This document shows, piece by piece, positions 5,972-46,003 of a stretch of DNA of 64,000 nt (positions are counted from its first letter, which is position 1; the number at the start of each line of letters is the position of its first letter). Under the pieces are notes generated by a model. The model saw only the letters and a list, made by a program, of their open reading frames with translations. It was not told the origin of the DNA and ran no database searches. Source of the stretch: Rhodanobacter sp. (GTDB lineage: Bacteria; Pseudomonadota; Gammaproteobacteria; Xanthomonadales; Rhodanobacteraceae); assembly GCA_024711345.1 (NCBI GenBank), contig JANJTA010000035.1, forward strand, positions 1-64,000. Reading direction: 5' to 3'. The position numbers were made by a program, and so were the translations under genes.

Positions 5972-6019
5972 GCAATGGAGGCCAAGGTCGGAATCGAACC
6001 GGCGTACGCGGATTTGCAG
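5972..6019 (-). repeat. Left attachment site: 48-bp repeat, 3' remnant of tRNA-Cys
   Basis: 48 bases identical to 45956-46003. The sequence is the 3' end of tRNA-Cys (encoded CCA, acceptor 3' strand, T-arm, variable loop, up to the anticodon loop). Identity stops at 6020, where phage DNA begins. It is the product of site-specific recombination by the integrase at 44692-45813. Confidence 0.95.
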
Positions 6020-7470: not shown

Positions 7471-8039
7471 GTCGCGCCCTCGTACGTTGCGAATACACCC
7501 GGCTGCAGGCCGCGCGCGAGCATGGAGGCCACCTTCGCGGTGGCCTCGGCCTTGGTGACCTTGCCGTCGCGGTTGGCGTCCAACCCGGAGTTCTGGCGGT
7601 AGGCGACGCCGCCGGAGAACAGCACGGCGTCTTCCGGCTGGCCGATGTACTTCGGCAGCAGGATGGCCATGTACATGTCCGACAGGCTGGCAATACGGCG
7701 GGCGTAGGGGCGGAAATAGCTGCGCACGTAGTCGAGCTGGGATTCCGCCGAGAGCAGCGCGAGATTCTCGACCGTGGTGCCCAGGCCGGGCGCCGTCGAT
7801 GGCATGAACTGGATGAGCCCCACGGCGCCGCTACCCGCGCCGTTGCGCACCGATGGGCTGAACGCAGTGCCGGTTTCGAATGCGATGCACGCCATCAGCC
7901 AGCTCGCGTGCTGCGGCCCCCAGCCGAATTCCTTGCAGATGCTGAACACCACCTGTGCAAAGGCGGTGCTGACGCGCGCGCCCCAGGCCAGCTGGATGGG
8001 CTTGGCACGATCGGTCGGCATCGGTAGCGGCAACGTCAT
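7467..8039 (-). CDS. Endolysin, lytic-transglycosylase/lysozyme-like
   Basis: 190 residues from the ATG at 8039; a GTG at 8054 is an alternative. The segment IAFETGTAFSPSVRN...GLIQFMPSTA carries the catalytic Glu and the GLIQFMP motif of the soluble lytic transglycosylase fold. A C-terminal EF-hand-like loop (DANRDGKVTKAE) may bind calcium. No signal peptide, so export through the holin is expected. The start lacks a Shine-Dalgarno sequence and lies 21 bases below copy A of the three-copy hairpin element. Confidence 0.75.
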   Translation of the reverse strand: MTLPLPMPTDRAKPIQLAWGARVSTAFAQVVFSICKEFGWGPQHASWLMACIAFETGTAFSPSVRNGAGSGAVGLIQFMPSTAPGLGTTVENLALLSAESQLDYVRSYFRPYARRIASLSDMYMAILLPKYIGQPEDAVLFSGGVAYRQNSGLDANRDGKVTKAEATAKVASMLARGLQPGVFATYEGAT

Positions 8040-26176: not shown

Positions 26177-28080
26177 CAGTTGGTTGCGAAGCCGCCGCGG
26201 CGGCGTGGGAGCGTTCCACGTGGAGCGATGGACGTCTTGACGTCCGTTTCCGGGGCCTTTTCAGGCCCCTGTTGTTGGACAGCCGACTGCAGCCGTGCTT
26301 CGCGGGCATCCCAGTCGGCCTTGGTCAGGCGGTGCAGGCGCAGTTCGGGGTGGTGGGCGGCGGCGTAGCTGTACACCCAGGTGTCGAGCGGTTCGTTGCG
26401 CGGGGCGCCCTTGCGCTTTTCGAAGCGGTTCTTGGTGGGGTTGTAGGTTTCAGCCACCAGGCCGCCGAAGTAGTCGGCGGGCAGATCCTCGCTCAGGTGC
26501 ACGGTGCGGGCGTCGGCCTGCTTGTCGGCGTCGGTGGATAGGCGCGAGTACAGCCAGTGCTTGATGCCGACGGTGCCGACGTGGTGGATCATGACGCCGC
26601 GCTTGTCGGCCTGGCCGCGCCAGTTGACGTCTTGCAGTTTGCCCTTGCTGAGCACCGGCGCGTTGTTGGGCACTGCGCCGAAGATGCACAACGGGCGGCG
26701 GATGACGCGGCGGCGCACGTAGGCTTTCACCGCCTCGGTGCGGTGGCCGCCGGCGTCGATGGCGGTGGCCTCCACGCGCAGCAGCGCGCCCCAGGCGTGT
26801 TCGATCGGCCTGTTGATCAGGTCGGTGAGCGCATCCCATACGGCGTCGTCGGCAGGGTCGCCGGGCAGCTCGACGTAGTCGAGCGTCCAGAAGGCCATTC
26901 CTCGGCCCCAACCGGTGAAGTGCACGGCCAGACGGTTATCTTGCGTGTCGACGCCAGCGGTGATGGCGAGCACGCTGGCCGGCGCGCTGCGCAGGCGGTA
27001 GGGTTCGGCGCGATCGGCGATGACGTTGTGCTTGACCGCGCGCATGGCGGGGTCTTCCCACGGCTCGGCGAGGCGGTCGTTGACGAAGGTCTTGAGCTTG
27101 GCGGGGTCGCCCTGGGCGTCGCGCCACTTGGCCACCAGGTCGAGCCAGCGCGGGCCGAGGCCGATGGGGTAGTAGAGGCAGTTGATGGTGTAGCCGCGGA
27201 TTTTACGCTCGGGGTGCTCGGGCACCCACTGGCCGGCGGCGATCATGTCGGCCTTGCGGTGTTCGTCGATGCACACGCCGCATTCGCGGCAGACGTACCA
27301 GCACTGGCCGCCGTCGGGCGTCCAGTGCAGGCCGGCCCACTCCAGCGGCTGCTGGTGGCCGCAGTCCGGGCATGGCACCAGGTAGCGACGCTGGTCGGAC
27401 TTGGCCCACAGGTATTCGATGCGGCTGGTGCCCTGCATCTGCGGGGTGCTGATGTACAGGCGCTTGCCGGTGGCCGGGAACGACGAGGTGCGGCCGTCGA
27501 GCATTTCGACGGGGTCGTCGCCGCCGCTGAGGTTGCCGGCGAACTCGTCCAGCTCGTCGACGATGAGTTTCTTGACGGTGGTGGATTTGAGGCGGCTGGG
27601 GCTGCCGGCGTGCTCGAGGTAGAGCTGGCCGCCGGCGAAATCCTTGAAGGTGCGCGTGTTGCTGCTGTCGCGGCTGGCCACACTGGTCAGCGCGCGCTGC
27701 GCTGCTGGCGTTTCCTCCAGCATGGGGTTGAGCTTCTGCGCCACCCACTTGTTCATCGACACTTCGCCGGGCAGGCACACCATTACCGGGCCCGGGTCGT
27801 GGTCCATGCTGTAGCCGAGCCAGTTCACCGCCACTTCGGTCTTGCCGAACTGGATGGGGAACATCAGCACCACGTCCTGCACGGTGCTGCGCGCGCTGAG
27901 GCAATCCATGGGCTCTCGCAGCGGCGGGTTGCGGTGCGTGCGCCAGCGGCCCGGCTCCGCGCTGCCCTTCGCCGACAGCACGCGCTCCGCATCCGCCCAC
28001 TGCGACACGGTGAGCGGCTTTCGCGGCGCGAGCGCGCGGGCGATGGCGGCGTGGATGCGCGGGGCGGCGGGGAGGGTCAT
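26173..28080 (-). CDS. Terminase large subunit, GpA family
   Basis: 635 residues. GpA-type DNA packaging ATPase and nuclease: VLMFPIQFGKTEVAVNW holds the atypical Walker A near residue 80, LIVDELDEF the Walker B acidic pair near 170, and a zinc-like CPDCGHQQ...CRECGVC pair of motifs near 240-280. The nuclease region begins around ITAGVDTQDNRLAVHFTGWG near 380. Start overlaps the methyltransferase stop (ATGA). Confidence 0.95.
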   Translation of the reverse strand: MTLPAAPRIHAAIARALAPRKPLTVSQWADAERVLSAKGSAEPGRWRTHRNPPLREPMDCLSARSTVQDVVLMFPIQFGKTEVAVNWLGYSMDHDPGPVMVCLPGEVSMNKWVAQKLNPMLEETPAAQRALTSVASRDSSNTRTFKDFAGGQLYLEHAGSPSRLKSTTVKKLIVDELDEFAGNLSGGDDPVEMLDGRTSSFPATGKRLYISTPQMQGTSRIEYLWAKSDQRRYLVPCPDCGHQQPLEWAGLHWTPDGGQCWYVCRECGVCIDEHRKADMIAAGQWVPEHPERKIRGYTINCLYYPIGLGPRWLDLVAKWRDAQGDPAKLKTFVNDRLAEPWEDPAMRAVKHNVIADRAEPYRLRSAPASVLAITAGVDTQDNRLAVHFTGWGRGMAFWTLDYVELPGDPADDAVWDALTDLINRPIEHAWGALLRVEATAIDAGGHRTEAVKAYVRRRVIRRPLCIFGAVPNNAPVLSKGKLQDVNWRGQADKRGVMIHHVGTVGIKHWLYSRLSTDADKQADARTVHLSEDLPADYFGGLVAETYNPTKNRFEKRKGAPRNEPLDTWVYSYAAAHHPELRLHRLTKADWDAREARLQSAVQQQGPEKAPETDVKTSIAPRGTLPRRRGGFATNW

Positions 28081-28729
28081 GCGATCAGCCTCCCTTGGCG
28101 CTGTGCGTCCTCGATGCGGCGGCAGGCAATGTCGAAATATCGCGGCTCGATCTCACAACCGATGAAGGCGCGACCAAGGTTTGCGCAGGCAACTCCGGTG
28201 GTTCCGCTGCCCATGTATGGATCGATAATCGTTCCTGCGTCGCTGCACTGCCGGATACAAAACTCCATCAGCGCAATCGGTTTCTGCGTCGGGTGATAAC
28301 GCTCTTTCCCGATGCCTTTTTCACTGGCTTTGCAGATGCCCTTCCACAGGTGGCTGAAAATGCGATCCTTGCCGCGACCCTTGTGCCACGCAAACTCCAC
28401 ATCCGAAAAGCTGTCGAACGCCTCCATGCCTGCCAGCTTGTCCCATGCAATCCAGCGCCCGTGCGGAAGCCGCGCCGCGAAGTGATTAGCGCCCCACAGG
28501 ATTACATCTGCGAAGTCGATCCAAGGCGCCGGGTCGAACGGTTCCGCATCGCCTGCAATGGTTTCGGTATTGCGCACCGTGTGCTTGCCTTTACCGCCGG
28601 AGCCTTTGGCGTAGGCGATGCCGTAGGGCGGATCACTGACCATCGCCCCCCCCTTGGAAGTTGCGGCAGTAGTTCGCGACAGTCGCCTAGATACAACGTG
28701 GCGTTGCCGATGATGACGGGATCGATCAC
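28077..28729 (-). pseudogene. DNA methyltransferase (beta-class, DPPY) split by a G8 tract
   Basis: The first part (GTG 28729, overlapping the small terminase stop) reads IGNATLYLGDCRELLPQLPRGG and then goes out of frame at eight consecutive G (28646-28653, minus strand). The rest, in another frame, reads VSDPPYGIAYAKGSGGKG and ends with DPYMGSGTTGVACANLGRAFIGCEI. Together they make one complete amino-methyltransferase with catalytic motif DPPY before the FxGxG-type motif. One extra G, or two fewer, restores the frame. Either a real inactivation, a phase-variable tract, or a read error. Confidence 0.8.
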
Positions 28730-36213: not shown

Positions 36214-36527
36214 TGGCCAACGACATCAGCCTCCCCAGCGCCGCGCGCGGCATCACCATGCACGTCACGCGCAGCCCGCAAAGCCCGCCGAGCTACAGCG
36301 TGTCGCTGTACCAGGCCCTGGCCACCCGCGGCCAGCCGCTGGTGCAGCTGGCGTACGCCGTCGGTGATGCCATCGAGCTGATCGCGCAACACCACAACCA
36401 AGCCTTCGCGCTGTGGCTGCGCGAGGACGGCCGCCGCCGCGTGTGCTTCGAACTCACCGCCGACGCAGCCGCCGCCGTCGCCGACTTCGCCGGCATCGCG
36501 CTGCCAGCCGCGCTGGAGGCCGCATGA
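36213..36527 (+). CDS. Small phage protein, unknown
   Basis: 104 residues, start TAATG overlapping the previous stop. Alternating strands and helices (GITMHVTRSPQSPPSYSVSLYQAL; AFALWLREDGRRRVCFELTADAAAAVADFAG). Not recognised; coupled member of the rightward operon. Confidence 0.65.
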   Translation: MANDISLPSAARGITMHVTRSPQSPPSYSVSLYQALATRGQPLVQLAYAVGDAIELIAQHHNQAFALWLREDGRRRVCFELTADAAAAVADFAGIALPAALEAA

Positions 36528-37343: not shown

Positions 37344-37531
37344 CCACCTGGGTGCCCGAACTCGACGGCTCCGCCGCGCTGCTCGACGAGTGGCATGCCC
37401 ACCTGCACGGCGACCCGCGCTACACCGAACCCGACGTACCCGCACCGCGCTACGTCGCGCAACTCCGCGCCACCACCGAAACCATCCACCGCAGGGCCGC
37501 GCTCGACGCGCAGGCCGAGGACCAGCCATGA
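37340..37531 (+). CDS. Small phage protein, unknown
   Basis: 63 residues (ELDGSAALLDEWHAHLHGDPRYTEPDVPAPRYVAQLRATTETI). Directly precedes and overlaps the first DGR target start by 4 bases, so the target genes are in the same transcript and translationally coupled. Confidence 0.6.
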   Translation: MTTWVPELDGSAALLDEWHAHLHGDPRYTEPDVPAPRYVAQLRATTETIHRRAALDAQAEDQP

Positions 37532-38064
37532 GCCACTTCCAGAAAATCACCGCCACCGGCAAAGCCGCCCGAGCCACCGCGAAAACGCATGCCGCCGTCA
37601 TCGACCAGCGCACCGGCCTGATGTGGACGGCCAAGGACGCCGGCACCGCCACGTTCTGTGACGCGCCGGCGCTGATTGCCGACCTCAACGCGAAAGCCTT
37701 CGCCGGCTTCACCGACTGGCGCCTGCCGACGCTGCAAGAGCTGTTCGGCATCGCCGACCACAGCCGCTTTTCGCCCGCGATCGACACCGACGCCTTCCCC
37801 AGCTGCAAGGGCGGCTGGTACTGGTCCAGCACCGTCTATGCGTCGCCCCCTCGGTCTACGCATGGTGCGTCTACTTCGGCGGCGGCAACGCCTACTACCT
37901 CCACCAGATCAACGGCGGGCGGGTGCGGGCGGTGCGGTCGGTGTCGTCGCCGGCGTCCGGTCAGTAATCGGCCTTTTGGCCACCGCCGCCATCACCGCGC
38001 CACCCAGCGCGCCGACATCCAGCGCCTGCTGCGCAAAGCCAACCGAAAAGGAGCCACCCCGTGA
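37528..38064 (+). CDS. DGR target 1 (DUF1566/C-type-lectin fold), frame-shifted in its variable repeat
   Basis: Starts MSHFQKI; DUF1566 features DQRTGLMW, FTDWRLPTLQELF and FPSCKGGWYWSSTV (paralogous to target 3). A single T is missing between 37845 and 37846 relative to the template and the other two repeats, so the last 40 residues go out of frame and the ORF runs to 38064 (178 residues). With the T restored it would end at 37967 with AWCVYFGGGNAYYLHQINGG and the common tail RAVRSVSSPASGQ. The shifted stop overlaps the GTG of target 2 (GTGA). Confidence 0.8.
   Translation: MSHFQKITATGKAARATAKTHAAVIDQRTGLMWTAKDAGTATFCDAPALIADLNAKAFAGFTDWRLPTLQELFGIADHSRFSPAIDTDAFPSCKGGWYWSSTVYASPPRSTHGASTSAAATPTTSTRSTAGGCGRCGRCRRRRPVSNRPFGHRRHHRATQRADIQRLLRKANRKGATP
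37840..37961 (+). repeat. DGR variable repeat 1
   Basis: 122 bases against the 123-base template at 39549-39671. Thirteen substitutions, all at template adenines, all inside the AAC-rich window; the GC-only 3' part is identical. One-base deletion near the 5' edge causes the frame shift. Confidence 0.95.
37970..37981 (+). promoter_or_regulatory. Hairpin downstream of variable repeat 1
   Basis: GGCC-TTTT-GGCC, starting 8 bases after the end of the repeat. Same element at 38561 and 39037; absent after the template repeat. In the Bordetella phage DGR a hairpin at this place is needed for target recognition. Confidence 0.7.
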
Positions 38065-38558
38065 ATCCAGCCACCGTCATCCACATCGGCGTCATCCACC
38101 TGCATGTGCCTTCGCCGGGCGTACTGCTCAACACCGAGCACCTGGCCGAAGCCGCGTCGATCGCCCACCCAGCCGCCGCCGCACCCGATGGCGTCGTGGT
38201 CGATCACGCCACCGGCCTGATGTGGTCCAAGGCCACCGTCGCCAAGGGCAAGACCTGGGCAGAAGCCAAGGCCGTCGCCGAGGCCGTACGCCTGGGCGGC
38301 TACACCGACTGGCGCCTGCCCACCCGCGCCGAGTTGCTCACGCTGGTCGACGACACCCGCAGCAACCCCGCCATCGACACCAGCCGGTTCGACTGCGAAA
38401 GCGACTGGTACTGGACATCCACGCCGCTGGCGTCGTCCCCCTCGGTCTTCGCATGGGTCGTCTTCTTCTACGACGGCTACGCCCTCTACTTCCGCCAGGT
38501 CAACGGCGGGCGGGTGCGGGCGGTGCGGTCGGTGTCGTCGCCGGCGTCCGGTCAGTAA
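38061..38558 (+). CDS. DGR target 2 (DUF1566/C-type-lectin fold), intact
   Basis: 165 residues from a GTG at 38061 with ribosome site AAAGGAG. The N-terminal 45 residues (TVIHIGVIHLHVPSPGVLL) differ from targets 1 and 3. DUF1566 core: DHATGLMWSKATV, GYTDWRLPTRAELLTLVDDT, ESDWYWTSTPLASSPSV. The last 43 residues are the variable repeat, reading AWVVFFYDGYALYFRQVNGG and the common tail ending SSPASGQ. No signal peptide. Predicted diversified ligand- or receptor-binding protein. Confidence 0.9.
   Translation: MNPATVIHIGVIHLHVPSPGVLLNTEHLAEAASIAHPAAAAPDGVVVDHATGLMWSKATVAKGKTWAEAKAVAEAVRLGGYTDWRLPTRAELLTLVDDTRSNPAIDTSRFDCESDWYWTSTPLASSPSVFAWVVFFYDGYALYFRQVNGGRVRAVRSVSSPASGQ
38430..38552 (+). repeat. 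DGR variable repeat 2
   Basis: 123 bases, same length as the template. Seventeen substitutions, every one at a template adenine, including one in the TAC codon upstream of the AAC block and one in a CAC codon. No change at C, G or T. Confidence 0.95.
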
Positions 38559-38560
38559 TC

Positions 38561-38572
38561 GGCCTATTGGCC
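38561..38572 (+). promoter_or_regulatory. Hairpin downstream of variable repeat 2
   Basis: GGCC-TATT-GGCC, starting 8 bases after the repeat; stem identical to that after repeat 1 with a different loop base. Confidence 0.7.
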
Positions 38573-38596
38573 TTCCCTTTCCAACGGAGATTCACC

Positions 38597-39034
38597 GTGT
38601 CCCACTTCCAAAAGATCGGCGCCGACGGCGCGCAACTGCCCGACAACGCCACCGACCATGTGGCCGTGCTCGATACCCGCACCGACCTCATGTGGTCAGC
38701 CGCCGATATCACCGACAAGCCGCTGCCGTTCAAGAAGTGCGCCGCCGCCTGCGAAGCACTGACCCTCGCCGGCTTCACCGACTGGCGCATGCCAACCGCC
38801 GAGGAACTGTTCGCCCTGGCCGATCGCAGCCGCCACGACCCGGCCATCGACACCGACGCCTTCCCCAGTTGCAAGGGCGGCTGGTACTGGTCCAGCACCG
38901 TCGATGCGTCGTCCCCCTCGGTCTACGCATGGAACGTCGGCTTCGGCCACGGCGGCGCCAACGTCAACCACCAGAACAGCAACGGGCGGGTGCGGGCGGT
39001 GCGGTCGGTGTCGTCGCCGGCGTCCGGTCAGTAA
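38597..39034 (+). CDS. DGR target 3 (DUF1566/C-type-lectin fold), intact
   Basis: 145 residues from a GTG at 38597 with GGAG upstream; the start residues SHFQKI match target 1. DUF1566 core: LDTRTDLMWSAADI, FTDWRMPTAEELFALADRS, FPSCKGGWYWSSTVDASSPSVYAW. The variable part reads NVGFGHGGANVNHQNSNG, followed by the invariant tail RAVRSVSSPASGQ. No signal peptide. Closest to the template of the three, so possibly the most recently rewritten or the least selected. Confidence 0.9.
   Translation: MSHFQKIGADGAQLPDNATDHVAVLDTRTDLMWSAADITDKPLPFKKCAAACEALTLAGFTDWRMPTAEELFALADRSRHDPAIDTDAFPSCKGGWYWSSTVDASSPSVYAWNVGFGHGGANVNHQNSNGRVRAVRSVSSPASGQ
38906..39028 (+). repeat. DGR variable repeat 3
   Basis: 123 bases. 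Nine substitutions at template adenines and one at a template T (38963, T to G, next to an A change at 38964). Confidence 0.95.
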
Positions 39035-39036
39035 TC

Positions 39037-39048
39037 GGCCTTTTGGCT
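39037..39048 (+). promoter_or_regulatory. Hairpin downstream of variable repeat 3
   Basis: GGCC-TTTT-GGCT, starting 8 bases after the repeat; one G.T pair in the stem. Confidence 0.65.
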
Positions 39049-39060
39049 GAGTAGCCCAGC

Positions 39061-39492
39061 ATGTCATTTTCCCTCCCGCCCATCGTGAAACTCGCCGAAC
39101 GCCTGCTCGTGGATATCGAGCAGGCCGTGCGGCGGTTCGCGCGCTTCCATAAGTACAGCTTCGGCGCAGACCTGCGTGCCCAGGCCATGAAAGTGGCACG
39201 CCTCGCGCACCGCGCCTGGCGCGATCGCGCACGACAGGCGGAATGGGTCGGACAACTGGTGTGGGCGGTGGACGATCTCAAGCTGTCCATGCAACTCGGC
39301 AGCCGCATCCGTGCCTTCGCCAGCTTTGGTCAGTTCGAACAGCTCGCCCGCCTCGCCGCCGACCTCGGCCGGCAGACGGGCGGCTGGCATCGCCAGCTGC
39401 ATCCCAATGTCCAGAATGGCCCGCATCGAATCGCCGGCCAGCGTGACCAGATACTGAGTTCCCGCGCCACCCCAGCCGGGGTCAAGCCATGA
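39061..39492 (+). CDS. avd: DGR accessory variability determinant (Avd)
   Basis: 143 residues. Four-helix-bundle protein with the family pattern: IVKLAERLLVDIEQAVRRFARFHKYSFGADLRAQAMKVARLAHRAWRDR, then LVWAVDDLKLSMQLGSRIRAFASFGQFEQLARLAADLGRQTGGWHRQ. Basic surface. Avd forms a pentamer that binds the reverse transcriptase and template RNA in the Bordetella system. Placed between targets and template as in that system. Its stop overlaps the ATG of the next ORF (ATGA). Confidence 0.9.
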   Translation: MSFSLPPIVKLAERLLVDIEQAVRRFARFHKYSFGADLRAQAMKVARLAHRAWRDRARQAEWVGQLVWAVDDLKLSMQLGSRIRAFASFGQFEQLARLAADLGRQTGGWHRQLHPNVQNGPHRIAGQRDQILSSRATPAGVKP

Positions 39493-40865
39493 CGAAACCG
39501 TGCCAACCCGCCATGGGCCGTGCGGAAGAGTCACAAGCGCACGGGATAGCGTCGTCCCCCTCGGTCTACGCATGGAACGTCAACTTCAACAACGGCAACG
39601 CCAACTACAACCACCAGAACAACAACGGGCGGGTGCGGGCGGTGCGGTCGGTGTCGTCGCCGGCGTCCGGTGAGTATCAGGGTGCACCACAAGGCGAGGT
39701 CAGCTTCCGCGACCTCCACCGCGCCTGGCAGCGCGCCCGGCGCCAGAAGGTGCCCAGCCAGAACCAGCTGCAGTTCGAAGCCCAGTGGATCGACGGCCTG
39801 CTCGACCTGCAACAGCAGATCAACGCCGGCCAGTGGCAACCCCGCGCTACCACCTGTTTCATCGCCACCAAGCCCAAGGCGCGGCAGATCCACGCGCCCG
39901 ACTTCGCCGACCGCATCGTGCACCACTGGCTGGTGCCGCAGCTCGAAGCCATCCACGAACCTGGCTTCATCCACCACAGCTACGCCAACCGCACCGGCAA
40001 GGGCACCCATGCCGCCGTCACCGCGCTGCGCACCATGGTGCGCCAGGTGCACAGCGGCCAGGGCGGCGGCTGGTACCTGCAGCTCGACATCCGCAACTTC
40101 TTCAACAGCGTGCACCGCCCCACCCTGTACCGCATGCTCAAGCAGCGCATGCAGCGCCGCCGCCTGCCGCTCATGGTGCAGCACGTGGCCCATGCCCTGC
40201 TGCGCCAGTCCGTCGAACACCAGGGCGTGGTGCATCGCTCCACCGCCGCCGAGCGCGCCCGCGTGCCCGCGCACAAGCGGCTTGAGAACGCCTCCCCCGG
40301 CTGTGGCCTGCCCGTCGGTAACCTGTCGTCGCAATTCTTCGCCAACGTCTACCTGGACGCGCTCGACCAGTTCGCCAAGCGCACCCTGCGCGCACCCCGC
40401 TACCTGCGCTACGTCGATGATTTCGTGCTGGTGCACCATAGCCGCGAGCAGCTCCAGCAGTGGCTGGGCCAGATCACCACGTTCCTGCGCGACACGCTCC
40501 GGCTCGAGCTGAAAGCCGACATCCGCCTGCGTCCGCTCACCGACGGCATCGACTTCCTCGGCTACGTCACCTACCCCACGCACACCCGCGTGCGCCGCCG
40601 CGTCGTGCAGCACGCCGCCACCGCGCTGGCCACCTGGCACCGCACCCATTGCACGCCGACTGGCGTGCGCTGCACCCCGGCCGAGCTGCGCCAGCTCAGC
40701 TCCACCTGGGCCAGCTACCGCGGCCACTTCGCGGGCGCCGACAGCCACCGCCTGCAGCAGATGTTCCGCGATCGCCATCCATGCATCGCGCTAACCGATA
40801 CCAAGCGCCGCTTCGATCACCGCATCGAAGGCCGGCGCATCACCTTGAGGGTTTCCCATGCCTGA
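39489..40865 (+). CDS. DGR reverse transcriptase
   Basis: 458 residues from the ATG at 39489, coupled to avd. Residues 21-61 are the translated template repeat, identical in frame to the C-termini of the target proteins. The RT proper begins near residue 70: FIATKPKARQIHAPDFADRIVHHWL, LQLDIRNFF with catalytic Asp200, GNLSSQ at 277-282 (the DGR form of the motif-4 region), YVDD at 308-311, then FLGYVTYPTHTRVRRR. It makes adenine-mutagenised cDNA from template RNA. The true start could also be a GTG within the template, as no ATG lies between template and RT domain. Confidence 0.95.
   Translation: MTKPCQPAMGRAEESQAHGIASSPSVYAWNVNFNNGNANYNHQNNNGRVRAVRSVSSPASGEYQGAPQGEVSFRDLHRAWQRARRQKVPSQNQLQFEAQWIDGLLDLQQQINAGQWQPRATTCFIATKPKARQIHAPDFADRIVHHWLVPQLEAIHEPGFIHHSYANRTGKGTHAAVTALRTMVRQVHSGQGGGWYLQLDIRNFFNSVHRPTLYRMLKQRMQRRRLPLMVQHVAHALLRQSVEHQGVVHRSTAAERARVPAHKRLENASPGCGLPVGNLSSQFFANVYLDALDQFAKRTLRAPRYLRYVDDFVLVHHSREQLQQWLGQITTFLRDTLRLELKADIRLRPLTDGIDFLGYVTYPTHTRVRRRVVQHAATALATWHRTHCTPTGVRCTPAELRQLSSTWASYRGHFAGADSHRLQQMFRDRHPCIALTDTKRRFDHRIEGRRITLRVSHA
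39549..39671 (+). repeat. DGR template repeat
   Basis: 123 bases with ten AAC codons in the centre and a GC-only 3' part. It is the source of the three variable repeats. Beyond its 3' end the sequence (GAGTATCAGG) differs from that after the variable repeats (CAGTAATCGG), and no hairpin follows. Confidence 0.95.
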
Positions 40866-41463: not shown

Positions 41464-41704
41464 CCTCGAGCAAATCCTCCTGCACCTGTGCCGCTTCGGC
41501 AGACCCAGGCTATCCCGGATGGACCGCGGCTGGCATTGCTGGGTCAGCATGCATGTGCAGGCCGTCGGCGCCGCCGTCGAAATCAAGTCCGAATTCGACC
41601 ACGCCACCCCTCTGGAATCCGCGCAAGTCTGCCTCGACCGCGTTCAGGCCGTGGTGCGCGACATCAGCAAGCTGGCCGACAACAAGGCGCTCACTCATGG
41701 CTGA
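41456..41704 (+). CDS. Small phage protein, unknown
   Basis: 82 residues from the ATG at 41456. WHCWVSMHVQAVGAAVEIKSEFDHATPLESAQVCLDRVQAVVRDI suggests a strand then a helix. Overlaps both neighbours by 8 bases. Confidence 0.6.
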   Translation: MADLEQILLHLCRFGRPRLSRMDRGWHCWVSMHVQAVGAAVEIKSEFDHATPLESAQVCLDRVQAVVRDISKLADNKALTHG

Positions 41705-43532
41705 CGGCTCCCAGCAGCACGCCTTCAACTTCCCCACCAAACCGCTGACATCAGCCCTGCGCCCCTGCGAAATCGTGGTCGATTTCTTCGCCGGCGGCGG
41801 CGGTGCCAGCGAAGCGCTGCGCCAGGCGCTGGGCCGCGACCCCGACGTGGCCGTCAACCACGACCCCGACGCGCTCGGCATGCACGCCGCCAACCACCCG
41901 TTCACCCGGCACATGGAAGCCGACGTGTGGGCGGTGGACATCCTGCGCGAAGTCGCCGGCCGCCCGGTGGGCTGGTTCCACGGCAGCCCGGACTGCACGC
42001 ATTTCAGCCAGGCCAAGGGCGGCCAGCCGCGATCGCGCGCCACGCGCTCGCTCAGCTGGGTCATGGTCAAGGTTGCCGGCACGCTGGCACGCCACGGCCT
42101 CGCACCACGGCTCATCAGCCTGGAGAACGTGCGCCAGATCCTCACCTGGTGCCCGCTGGTCGCCAAGCGCGACAAAGCCACCGGCCGCGTCGTGCGCCTC
42201 GACGGCACCGTGGCCGCACCCGGCGAACGCACCCCGCTGCGCGAGCAGTTCCTGGTGCCGGACAAGAAGCGCGCCGGCAGCATCTGGCGGCAGTTCGTCG
42301 CCGCGCTGCGCGCGCTGGGTTACGTCGTGGAGTGGCGCATCCTGCGCGCCTGTGACTACGGCGCCGGCACCAGCCGCGAGCGCCTGTTCCTCATCGCGCG
42401 CCGCGACGGCGAGCCCATCGTCTGGCCTGGGCCGACGCACGGGCCCGGCCGCGCACAGCCGTATGTCACCGCCGCCGACTGCATCGACTGGTCCATCCCG
42501 TGCCCTTCCATCTTCACCCGCAAGAAGCCGCTGGCCGACGCCACCCAGCGCCGCATTGCTCGCGGCGTGATGCGCTACGTGGTGGAGGCAGCTGAACCGT
42601 TCATCGTGCAGTGCGCCAATGCTTCGGCCAATGGCATCGCGCCCGCCAGCGATCCGCTTGGCGTGGTCACCGCGTGGCCGAAGGGCGGCGCGCATGCAGT
42701 GGTGGCGCCGACACTGGTGCAGACCGGCTACGGCGAGCGGGCCGGCCAGGCCCCGCGCGCGCTCGATCTGCAGTCGCCACTCGGCACCGTCGTCGGTGGA
42801 GGCACCAAACACGCGCTGGTCACCGCACTGCTGGCCGGCGTCGGTGGCCGCGCGGGCGACACCGAGCCACGCCCGGTCAACCAGCCGGGATATACAGTCA
42901 CCGCAAAAGCCGACTGCGCCGTCGTCACCGCCTTCCTCGAGCAAGCCAACGGCGGCGGCGAGAACGGCAACCCGGCCCGCTCGCGTGGCGCCGATGAGCC
43001 GGTGAACAGCATCACCGGCAGCGGCAACCAGCAGCGGCTGGTGACGGCGCACATGGCCAAGCTGCGTGGCACCAGCAGCGCCGCCGACGTGGTCGACCCG
43101 CTGGCCACCATCAGCGCCGGTGGCGAACACCACGCCGTGGTCGAATGCACGCTGAGCCCGGAACACGAAGCCGGCGCGCTGCGCGTCGCCGCGTTCCTGG
43201 TCAACTACTACGGCAACGGCGCCCCGCGCGACCTGCGCGAATCGCTCGACACGGTAACCACCCGAGACCGCCTCGCACTGGTCACCGTCACGATCAAGGG
43301 CACGCCCTACGTCATCGTGGACATCGGCCTGCGCATGCTCAAGCCGCGCGAGCTATACCGCGCTCAGGGCTTCCCCGCCGACTACATCATCGACCGCACC
43401 GCCAGCGGCAAGCCGCTCACCATCAGCGCGGCCGTGCGCATGGTCGGCAACAGCGTCAGCCCGCCGCCCCTCTGCGCGATCGCGCGGGCCAACCTCGACC
43501 CGGTCGATGTACGGGAAAGGCTCGTCGCATGA
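41697..43532 (+). CDS. DNA cytosine-5 methyltransferase
   Basis: 611 residues from the ATG at 41697. Motif I VVDFFAGGGGASEAL near residue 24, motif IV SPDCTHFSQ with the catalytic Cys near 99, motif VI LENVRQI near 142, motif VIII-like GAGTSRERLFLIARR near 222, and motifs IX-X (ELYRAQGFPADY, MVGNSVSPP) at the C-terminus. Between about 320 and 535 lie six repeats of a unit with PLxTVxxxxxHALV, longer than usual for the recognition region. It probably protects phage DNA from restriction. Confidence 0.9.
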   Translation: MADGSQQHAFNFPTKPLTSALRPCEIVVDFFAGGGGASEALRQALGRDPDVAVNHDPDALGMHAANHPFTRHMEADVWAVDILREVAGRPVGWFHGSPDCTHFSQAKGGQPRSRATRSLSWVMVKVAGTLARHGLAPRLISLENVRQILTWCPLVAKRDKATGRVVRLDGTVAAPGERTPLREQFLVPDKKRAGSIWRQFVAALRALGYVVEWRILRACDYGAGTSRERLFLIARRDGEPIVWPGPTHGPGRAQPYVTAADCIDWSIPCPSIFTRKKPLADATQRRIARGVMRYVVEAAEPFIVQCANASANGIAPASDPLGVVTAWPKGGAHAVVAPTLVQTGYGERAGQAPRALDLQSPLGTVVGGGTKHALVTALLAGVGGRAGDTEPRPVNQPGYTVTAKADCAVVTAFLEQANGGGENGNPARSRGADEPVNSITGSGNQQRLVTAHMAKLRGTSSAADVVDPLATISAGGEHHAVVECTLSPEHEAGALRVAAFLVNYYGNGAPRDLRESLDTVTTRDRLALVTVTIKGTPYVIVDIGLRMLKPRELYRAQGFPADYIIDRTASGKPLTISAAVRMVGNSVSPPPLCAIARANLDPVDVRERLVA

Positions 43533-44321: not shown

Positions 44322-44771
44322 ATGGCGGATGAAATCGTAGGCCACAAGACATTCATCGACGGTCGCGGCAGGTTCAGCCACGAACCGTTGTACCAGAGCG
44401 AGGCCGATGCCTTGCTCAAGAAGGTCGCAGAGGAAGAAGCGCGCCGCGCCGCACTGATGCCGGACGAACAGGCGGCGATCGACATGTTCTTCGATGCATG
44501 GCTGCGCCTGAAAGACTTCGGCTGGCGCGAAGCGTCCTACTGTCCGAAAAACGGCCGCACCTTCCAGGCTATCGAGGCAGGCAGCACCGGCATTCACTTG
44601 TGCCATTACGAAGGCGAGTGGCCCACCGGAACCTATTGGACACACTCGATCGGTGACCTGTGGCCATCACGCCCGACGTTGTTCCGCGAACTCACCACAA
44701 CCGACTCGCCAGCTTGCTCCCCCGCAGGTTCGCATACCGCGCCAGCATCGCCAGGTTCCGATGGCCCGTGA
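44322..44771 (+). CDS. Phage protein, unknown
   Basis: 149 residues. Middle part DMFFDAWLRLKDFGWREASYCPKNGRTFQAIEAGSTGIHLCHYEGEWPTGTYWTHSIGDLWPSRPTLF resembles small phage proteins of unknown role with Trp/Tyr-rich strands. The last 27 residues are antisense to the integrase end (convergent overlap 44692-44771). Confidence 0.65.
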   Translation: MADEIVGHKTFIDGRGRFSHEPLYQSEADALLKKVAEEEARRAALMPDEQAAIDMFFDAWLRLKDFGWREASYCPKNGRTFQAIEAGSTGIHLCHYEGEWPTGTYWTHSIGDLWPSRPTLFRELTTTDSPACSPAGSHTAPASPGSDGP

Positions 44772-45813
44772 TCTTCGCGATCTCCAAGTCGCTCAGCTCC
44801 GTGCGTTCGAACAGCCGGCTGGTGGCCTCGTGCCGCAGATCGTGGAAGCGGAGGTCGACGCACTTGGCCGCCGCGAAGATCCGCGCGTACTGCCGCGACA
44901 ACCGCGACGTGGTGCGTTCCAGACTGCGCCGGCTCAGGTCGCCGTCCCACCACGGGAACAGCAACGCATCCGGCGCCATGCCTTGCACGTAGCCGGCCAG
45001 CACCGCACGCGCCACCGACGATAGCGGAACCTGCCGCTTGTCGCCGTTCTTGGTCTTGTCGAGGAACACCGTCATGCGCGGCAGGTCGACCTGCCGCACC
45101 TCCAGCGTGTACATCTCGCGCATCCGCATCGCCGACTCGAGCGCCAGGTCGAACAGCACCACCAGCGCCTCGACCTCCCGCCGCGCCAGTGCGCGCTGAC
45201 GCCCCTCAGGCTTCTCGCCGGCCAGGATCGCGCGTATGCGCAGTTCCTCGCCATCCTCCAACCGGCGGTCGCGCTCTTCTTCCTCTTTCGCCTCGCCATC
45301 AATCACTGTCACCGCCTCAACATCGTGCGGCGTGTACGTGGCATAACCCTTGGCCAGCAGTCGCAGCGGGTTGAACGGCAACTCGCCGCGCGCCGCCAGC
45401 CAGTCCAGGCACCGCGCCAACGCGCCCACGTGCTTGCGCACCGTGCTCGGCGACAGGTTCTGTTCCCGCTTCAACGCCGACACCCAGCCCTGCGCCCACA
45501 CGAAGCTCAACGCCGGCAGGCCCAGCTCGCGCGGCAGCCGCATCGTGACGACGTCCAGCAACCGCTTGTCCTCCACCGTGACGTGCTGGTCGAGCAGGTA
45601 GCGCCGCACCCCATCGCGCAGCGTGTTCGCTATCTCGCGCTTTTCCGCAAACTCGTCCGGCACCACGCCGCGATCGAGCAGCGCCTCCACGCGCCGCACG
45701 TACTCATCACCCTCGGCCTCATCGGCGAAGCTCAAATAAAGCGGCCTGGGCAACAACCCAAGCCGCTTGATCGTGTAGTGCCAGGTATCCCCTCGTCGGC
45801 GCTTCGTCGCCAT
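44692..45813 (-). CDS. int: Tyrosine-recombinase integrase
   Basis: 373 residues from the ATG at 45813; the open frame continues upstream through the tRNA genes but that part is not protein-like. N-terminal Arm-binding part (WHYTIKRLGLLPRPLYLSFADEAEG), core-binding helices (LSPSTVRKHVGALARCLDWLAARGELPFNPL), and catalytic residues in AMRMREMYTLEV (Arg), HDLRHEA (His, Arg), TGHRN (His) and the Tyr in ARYANL. It integrates the phage into tRNA-Cys, whose intact copy lies 147 bases upstream. Confidence 0.95.
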   Translation of the reverse strand: MATKRRRGDTWHYTIKRLGLLPRPLYLSFADEAEGDEYVRRVEALLDRGVVPDEFAEKREIANTLRDGVRRYLLDQHVTVEDKRLLDVVTMRLPRELGLPALSFVWAQGWVSALKREQNLSPSTVRKHVGALARCLDWLAARGELPFNPLRLLAKGYATYTPHDVEAVTVIDGEAKEEEERDRRLEDGEELRIRAILAGEKPEGRQRALARREVEALVVLFDLALESAMRMREMYTLEVRQVDLPRMTVFLDKTKNGDKRQVPLSSVARAVLAGYVQGMAPDALLFPWWDGDLSRRSLERTTSRLSRQYARIFAAAKCVDLRFHDLRHEATSRLFERTELSDLEIAKITGHRNLAMLARYANLRGSKLASRLW

Positions 45814-45955
45814 CGCCAAAACTCCCGTCCACGGAAAACGCTCAACCTTCCACGAGTTTACCGCCCGAAACCGGGTGGCAAGCAAGCGATTTCGCCCCAC
45901 AAACGCAAGATTCAACGCAACAAAAAAGCGCCCGAAGGCGCTTAAGTGCTTGATT
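45814..45955. other. Phage attachment arm between integrase and attR
   Basis: 142 bases without a gene. It holds the integrase promoter region, presumably integrase arm sites (not resolvable by eye), and the phage-encoded replacement terminator. Confidence 0.5.
45922..45943 (-). terminator. Phage-supplied replacement terminator for tRNA-Cys
   Basis: Perfect 7-bp stem (AAGCGCC / GGCGCTT on the plus strand) with a 4-nt loop and six T on the minus strand. It lies 12 bases beyond the 48-bp repeat, so it ends the host tRNA transcript in the lysogen and keeps it out of the integrase gene. Confidence 0.75.
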
Positions 45956-46003
45956 GCAATGGAGGCCAAGGTCGGAATCGAACCGGCGTACGCGGATTTG
46001 CAG
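45956..46003 (-). repeat. Right attachment site: 48-bp repeat within intact tRNA-Cys
   Basis: Identical to 5972-6019. Includes four phage bases beyond the encoded CCA, then the 3' half of tRNA-Cys up to the anticodon loop. Confidence 0.95.

Follow-up and report, generated by a model that had tools for sequence, protein, structure and literature searches.

A Rhodanobacter prophage diversity-generating retroelement with its template repeat inside the reverse transcriptase open frame and a covarying RNA element 5' of it

The window, a 64,000-nt stretch of contig JANJTA010000035.1 from a Rhodanobacter sp. assembly, contains a prophage-borne diversity-generating retroelement (DGR) composed of three genes for Lcl_C proteins, each with a variable repeat (VR), the accessory gene avd, a template repeat (TR) and a reverse transcriptase (RT) gene (Table 1). 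A first-pass annotation had drawn the TR as a separate element between avd and the RT gene; instead, the TR lies inside the RT open frame and in the same reading frame, and it is probably translated as part of the RT. A covarying three-way-junction RNA element is located immediately 5' of the TR. Apparently new here are the coding constraint on the leader of an RT gene that has the TR inside it, and the 5' RNA, which is not listed in Rfam. Tentatively, and with somewhat more doubt than conviction, we propose from sequence comparisons that the TR serves as both message and template, that the 5' RNA rather than a 3' spacer marks the template, and that RT-Avd binding limits RT synthesis.

The template repeat and the RT reading frame

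Related cassettes were taken from two collection scans, each contributing the best 80 of more than 570 relatives; the resulting 160 loci (labelled L...), the window and six phage records make up the 167 loci analysed. The 100 loci with an RT identity of at least 57% are referred to as the clade and the 67 others as distant. Some clade loci are duplicates, one genome or virus being present in both collections. TR-bearing loci number 98 of the 100 in the clade and 62 of the 67 distant ones.

All 98 TR-bearing clade loci have an RT frame that stays open across the TR, compared with 28 of the 62 distant ones. The latter include VP58.5, phiARM81mr, Magia and BPP-1, which was counted as open by the script although its annotated brt begins after the TR. 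No start codon occurs between the TR and the RT core in 92 of the 98 clade loci, and in most clade loci the chosen RT ATG overlaps the avd stop, as ATGACG. In a thinned set, the RT frame runs unbroken for more than 400 aa from the chosen start (58/58 loci). Gap runs in the leader after the ATG are multiples of 3 in 34 of 35 cases, the exception being L049, in which the TR is read in another frame. Single-base codon differences in the leader are synonymous more often in the RT frame (42%) than in the other two (26% and 24%), shares that were obtained from all sequence pairs with relatedness uncorrected. Evolution of the leader resembles that of coding sequence.

In an RT tree built with a quick method, one branch (SH-aLRT 100) holds the 27 clade members sampled, every one of them open through the TR, and the nearest non-clade rows (L108, L109, L111 and L113) have the RT after the TR. 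The open/separate label switches 13 times over 89 rows, with BPP-1 set to "separate" from its annotation, against the script label.

Several observations weigh against translation of the TR. In-frame GTG codons occur inside the window TR; the RT frame passes through the TR in a different frame in L049, L078 and L104, where a GTG at the TR end could start the RT; a start codon follows the TR in three more clade loci (L021, L032 and L047); and the script did not detect the overlap with the avd stop at every locus (e.g., L013 and L032). In an alternative account, the TR would be an ordinary non-coding repeat, the RT would start at a GTG in the TR 3' constant part or just after it, and the open frame upstream would have arisen incidentally, the TR having been copied from a coding region of GC-rich DNA. 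The GTG codons, the presence in 6 of 98 clade loci of a start codon at the TR end or beyond it, and the 34 of 62 TR-bearing distant loci in which the RT begins after the TR all agree with such an account. We nevertheless consider it quite improbable, given the leader gap runs, the synonymous excess in the RT frame and the difference between clade and distant loci in openness through the TR, BPP-1, with its brt after the TR, being one of the 28 distant loci counted as open. Translation of the TR within the RT is thus the preferred reading. The leader and TR peptide (residues 1-65) has a pLDDT below 50 in the RT model; it was rejected as a conserved RT domain, since it is predicted to be disordered and is in another reading frame in three loci.

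TRs that overlap the 5' end of the RT open reading frame (ORF) are a recognised class, structural group 3 of DiGReF, which is an annotation class (PMC3521204). The window TR overlaps the RT ORF in the same way, and the cassette goes beyond that class in its leader coding constraint and its 5' RNA element.

Short frames of 64–65 aa covering the leader and TR occur in L109 (4165-4362), L111 (2297-2491) and L130 (2340-2534). They begin in the RNA element and stop no more than about 10 bases from where the RT starts, as though the TR formed a small RT-coupled cistron; judging from these frames, ribosomes may cross the TR in many DGRs. A stop of the TR frame between -12 and +15 nt relative to the RT start, present in 26 of 34 loci, was discounted as support because the count is partly built in, the RT start having been sought just after the TR.

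The RNA element 5' of the template repeat

Alignment of 58 loci around the RT start revealed a three-way junction of 16 pairs, in which 96.5% of cells are paired and 13 pairs have changes on both sides. Cells changed on both sides number 119, against a shuffle mean of 26.9, and none of 500 shuffles scored as high. When partners were slid by 1–3 columns, all five pairing measures fell; relatedness is controlled by this sliding test, not by the shuffles. The element spans the avd stop and the RT start, and the RT ATG sits in the junction. In a scan along the 58 loci, pairs with both-side changes number 4–13 in the segments that span the RT start and at most one in each of the 12 segments between the TR end and +720.

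A covariance model of the element, R1, matches the window at 39429-39557 (106.8 bits, the window being among the model's own sequences). Among 41 clade sources, R1 found the whole element in 39, which include the window as a training row and many near copies of training rows, a cut element in L016, and none in L075, a locus that starts 117 bases before the RT match. In the 67 distant loci and phage records, L111, L113, L108, L109, L115 and L117 have matches at E<1e-5, each adjoining the TR, and the other matches are weak. A search of 250 genomes of the order returned three matches, i.e., the window's own, one in the same-genus genome G007 beside a 95% identical RT, and one in G236. No match near cut-off was obtained for the element in an Rfam search of the window stretch.

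Some results are unfavourable to a structured RNA. The single-sequence fold of the window is unremarkable (z -1.17), the region is also protein-coding on both sides of the RT start, and a helix holding the RT start codon was rejected, as its variation is one-sided only. Neither excess synonymous constraint at the RT 5' end (84 RTs) nor a comparable covarying structure was detected, and a hidden 3' spacer RNA in the RT 5' coding region was rejected on these grounds. Base pairing between the 5' ACTGA motif and a UCAG 3' of the TR was also rejected, since the 3' partner varies and the 5' motif is constant.

The element might serve only to control translation at the avd-RT junction, with no role in templating. 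Its position across the avd stop and the RT start, with the ATG in the junction, is compatible with this explanation, which is not very likely: R1 finds the element still adjoining the TR in L111, L113, L108, L109 and L117, all labelled RT-after-TR, and the element therefore tracks the template, not the RT start alone. Moreover, the RT-15 and BPP-1 RNAs also flank the TR. A template role for the element is the reading that we tentatively prefer.

RT-15 (RF03018) is a structured RNA directly 5' of the TR in DGRs of Pseudomonas and Burkholderia phages (L172, 4717-4909; L173, 4677-4867; L174, 4739-4921), and the RT frame of these DGRs is open through the TR. Its 3' end lies within 3 bases of the TR start in three phage DGRs (Cruim01, LPPA56 and Magia), which suggests that RT-15 forms the 5' portion of a DGR template RNA; the clade finding likewise suggests a role for this Rfam family. 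The RT-15 model has no match on the DGR strand of the window, with a weak match on the opposite strand inside the RT (20.4 vs 82 bits), and R1 does not reach E 1 in L172-L174.

The cassette had been described as having the same order as the Bordetella phage DGR. Superficially, this holds: BPP-1 and the window share gene order (mtd-avd-TR-brt), RT type, Avd, adenine-specific transfer from TR to VR, a TR/VR boundary difference and a lectin-like target. Mtd of BPP-1 has a lectin-like fold. The likeness does not extend to the template region. In BPP-1, the TR (2187-2320) is outside brt (from 2465) and the RF03022 Phage_DGR RNA is 3' of the TR, whereas the window cassette has its TR inside the RT frame, a covarying RNA on the 5' side and free-standing lectins outside the tail genes. 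RF03022 has no gathering-level match in the window, and no comparable structure, a divergent one being possible, was found 3' of the TR in the 58 loci. In the BPP-1 working model (PMC12875486), the 3' spacer RNA flanks the TR, recruits the RT complex and primes cDNA.

In the mechanism proposed here, avd, the RNA element, the TR and the RT gene would lie on one transcript, used as message and as template. Ribosomes finishing avd would re-start at the overlapping ATG and cross the TR, producing an RT with a disordered tail; binding of RT-Avd to the folded 5' element would then turn the same RNA into a template. The cDNA would begin near the TR 3' end, acquire errors at A and stop at the 5' junction, and would then take the place of a VR; the CAGT boundary and the inverted repeat, both absent from the TR, would guide this exchange. 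If true, there are at least two DGR RNA architectures, the one described here having the template in the RT coding sequence and a conserved RNA flanking the TR on the opposite side, and the sharing of one RNA by ribosomes and reverse transcriptase becomes testable. The parts of PMC3521204, PMC6642488, PMC8144416 and PMC12875486 available contain no description of a translated TR or of this RNA.

Variable repeats and lectin targets

Repeats in the window were detected by a method without adenine bias, on which the mismatch counts rest. Four copies were found (37846-37981, 38437-38572, 38913-39048 and 39556-39691), in agreement with the initial description of one AAC-rich TR and three diversified repeats. 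Over a common 116-nt core, 39 of 40 mismatches fall at TR adenines (VR1, 13/13; VR2, 17/17; VR3, 9/10), compared with about 9 of 40 expected by chance, given 25 A in the core. The sole non-adenine mismatch, a T to G in VR3, adjoins a changed A. Read by eye, the TR 3' boundary is GAGT (39672-39675), without an inverted repeat, and VR1 is followed by CAGT and a GGCC-TTTT-GGCC inverted repeat, near-identical copies of which follow VR2 (38553-38572) and VR3 (39029-39048). A whole-genome search with the avd-RT segment retrieved the three VRs and one extra 44-base match (7536-7579). Over 172 clade VRs, 2434 of 2455 mismatches are at adenines, a share that is not used as proof because the VR-finding scan favoured adenine mismatches.

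Five pairs of loci, compared among pairs with RTs of equal length, have identical TRs and non-identical RTs (93–95% identical DNA). Within these pairs, each VR compared differs at 11–16 of 23 adenine sites and nowhere else. The upstream target is 87–98% identical in L079/L081, L054/L082 and L070/L076, and unrelated in L054/L077 and L077/L081. On the opposing side, TR pairs differing by 1–4 bases also show 1–4 non-adenine VR differences, as TR drift would give. In seven pairs both the RTs and the VRs are identical, and each such pair seems to be one genome or virus in duplicate. Judged from sequence, the Lcl_C lectin genes of this family undergo adenine-directed diversification.

The 93 non-redundant clade cassettes carry one (27), two (54), three (11) or four (1) VRs, counts that are lower bounds set by flank length. 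The three targets of the window had been regarded as special next to the single Bordetella target, but several targets are ordinary in this clade, where two or more VRs are present in 66 of 93 cassettes and three or four in 12; their number was consequently dropped as a novelty. DGRs with multiple DUF1566 targets have already been published (PMC6642488). For instance, the DGR of Stenotrophomonas sp. SKA14, from a related host group, likewise has several such targets, and it is described as having two TRs and six VRs, unlike the one TR and three VRs of the window. The family is well populated, mainly in Xanthomonadales/Lysobacterales and their phages, and the window cassette is an ordinary member.

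One template had been said to serve three lectin targets. Three VRs are indeed present, but only targets 2 and 3 are in frame. VR1 is one base short at its 5' edge, lacking a T found before CCCCC in the three remaining copies, and because of this the target 1 frame leaves the VR frame and runs on to 38064. Targets 1 and 3 are 83% alike over 154 nt. The target 3 model (pLDDT 89.5) has the Legionella Lcl C-terminal domain as its best PDB match (Foldseek, E 8.8e-6, TM 0.57) and matches C-type lectins more weakly; together with the Lcl_C assignment, it identifies a C-type-lectin-like target with a C-terminal VR. Target 3 had no match in tblastn searches of the phage records. The targets are small free-standing lectins encoded on the strand opposite to the structural genes.

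Just after VR1, the window is about 2.8 kb shorter than L091, with the junction at the VR1 inverted repeat; this DNA was either lost by the window or gained by L091. The segment between VR1 and target 2 (37978-38064) is the leftover 3' end of a frame that is intact in L091 (4468-4836). In L011, which is the same element as L091, the corresponding distant target is in frame into its own VR. A tally of frameshifted VRs across the clade was discarded because many rows had been given wrong frames by the script, and frame loss was examined in window VR1, L014, L024 and L029. A second case beside window VR1 is L014, where a VR lying some 1.2 kb before the RT match has one base fewer within the repeat than the TR, and the target frame is lost. 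The VRs nearest avd in L051 and L084 are longer or shorter than the TR by a single codon, a pattern that RT slippage on an AAC-rich template would give.

The cassette could be a decaying remnant that no longer mutates, with target 1 frameshifted. The out-of-frame VR1, the 2.8 kb absent relative to L091 beside target 1 and the draft state of the assembly (41 contigs) are in line with decay, which we hold to be unlikely. The RT, Avd, TR, two targets and the RNA element are intact, and the three VRs all differ from one another. In addition, comparison of VR3 with L091 (TR divergence, 2 of 116 bases) gave differences at 17 of 25 adenine sites both times.

Avd, RT and the prophage

The Avd assignment made at first reading is borne out by a match to PHROG 3206 ("Avd protein of DGR", E 1.7e-15); matches to NCBIfam Avd (E 1.1e-8) and Pfam bAvd (E 6e-4) are both under the curated cut-offs. 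The three RT motifs noted initially are present in the open frame (Table 1), and GNLSSQ is one that we take to be DGR-typical. The best PDB sequence match of the RT profile is 8ub7, a 328-residue RT (E 1.6e-52) that is probably BPP-1 Brt, which is also 328 aa long; the next is a group II intron RT (E 1.7e-19), and the RT thus falls on the DGR side. Pointing the other way, the top NCBIfam RT match is a group II intron model (109.9 bits, with a cut-off of 300). PADLOC returned general RT and defence-RT matches only on the window. The closest named relative of the RT is found in Rhodanobacter thiooxydans LCS2 (95%), and G007 carries another RT at 95%.

Table 1 Features of the window
Feature	Coordinates	Strand	Remarks
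Prophage	5972-46003		perfect 48-bp direct repeat at ends; structural genes
Target 1, Lcl_C protein	37528-38064	+	PF07603, E 4.9e-24; frame leaves VR frame
VR1	37846-37961	+	13/13 mismatches at TR adenines
VR1 boundary CAGT and inverted repeat GGCC-TTTT-GGCC	37962-37981	+	3' of VR1; read by eye
Target 2, Lcl_C protein	38061-38558	+	165 aa; GTG start; PF07603, E 1.2e-27
VR2	38426-38552	+	19/19 mismatches at TR adenines over 127 nt
Target 3, Lcl_C protein	38597-39034	+	145 aa; GTG start; PF07603, E 1e-27; predicted C-type lectin fold
VR3	38906-39028	+	9/10 mismatches at TR adenines
avd	39061-39492	+	143 aa; PHROG 3206; stop overlaps RT ATG (ATGA)
Three-way-junction RNA element	39453-39545	+	93 nt; covariation; ends 3 nt before TR
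RNA element, ACTGAGT	39453-39459	+	start of element
RNA element, outer stem	39461-39467 with 39539-39545	+	
RNA element, hairpin	39469-39472 with 39479-39482	+	
RNA element, hairpin	39497-39503 with 39520-39526	+	outermost pair unformed in window
DGR RT open frame	39489-40865	+	458 aa; LQLDIRNFF, GNLSSQ, YVDD; residues 1-65 predicted disordered
TR, AAC-rich	39549-39671	+	within RT open frame, in RT reading frame
Phage integrase	44692-45843	-	profile match; right end of prophage

The prophage, about 40 kb in size, is integrated in a soil bacterium (Rhodanobacter). The two copies of its att repeat (5972-6019 and 45956-46003) match perfectly, and the right copy lies within the 3' part of a tRNA-Cys gene. 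Phage genes on the minus strand encode terminase, major head, tape measure, major tail, tail fibre and primase proteins. The DGR is on the plus strand, near the integrase gene and outside the tail genes. Its identification as a prophage DGR is upheld by the att repeat, the phage structural genes and integrase, the DGR-type RT, Avd and the adenine-specific VRs. ARAGORN predicts a minus-strand tRNA-Phe gene (36432-36523) ahead of the DGR, which is unconfirmed by the Rfam tRNA model and probably false. Two phage DNA methyltransferase genes are present, one beside the terminase genes (28077-28643) and one just downstream of the DGR (41553-43532).

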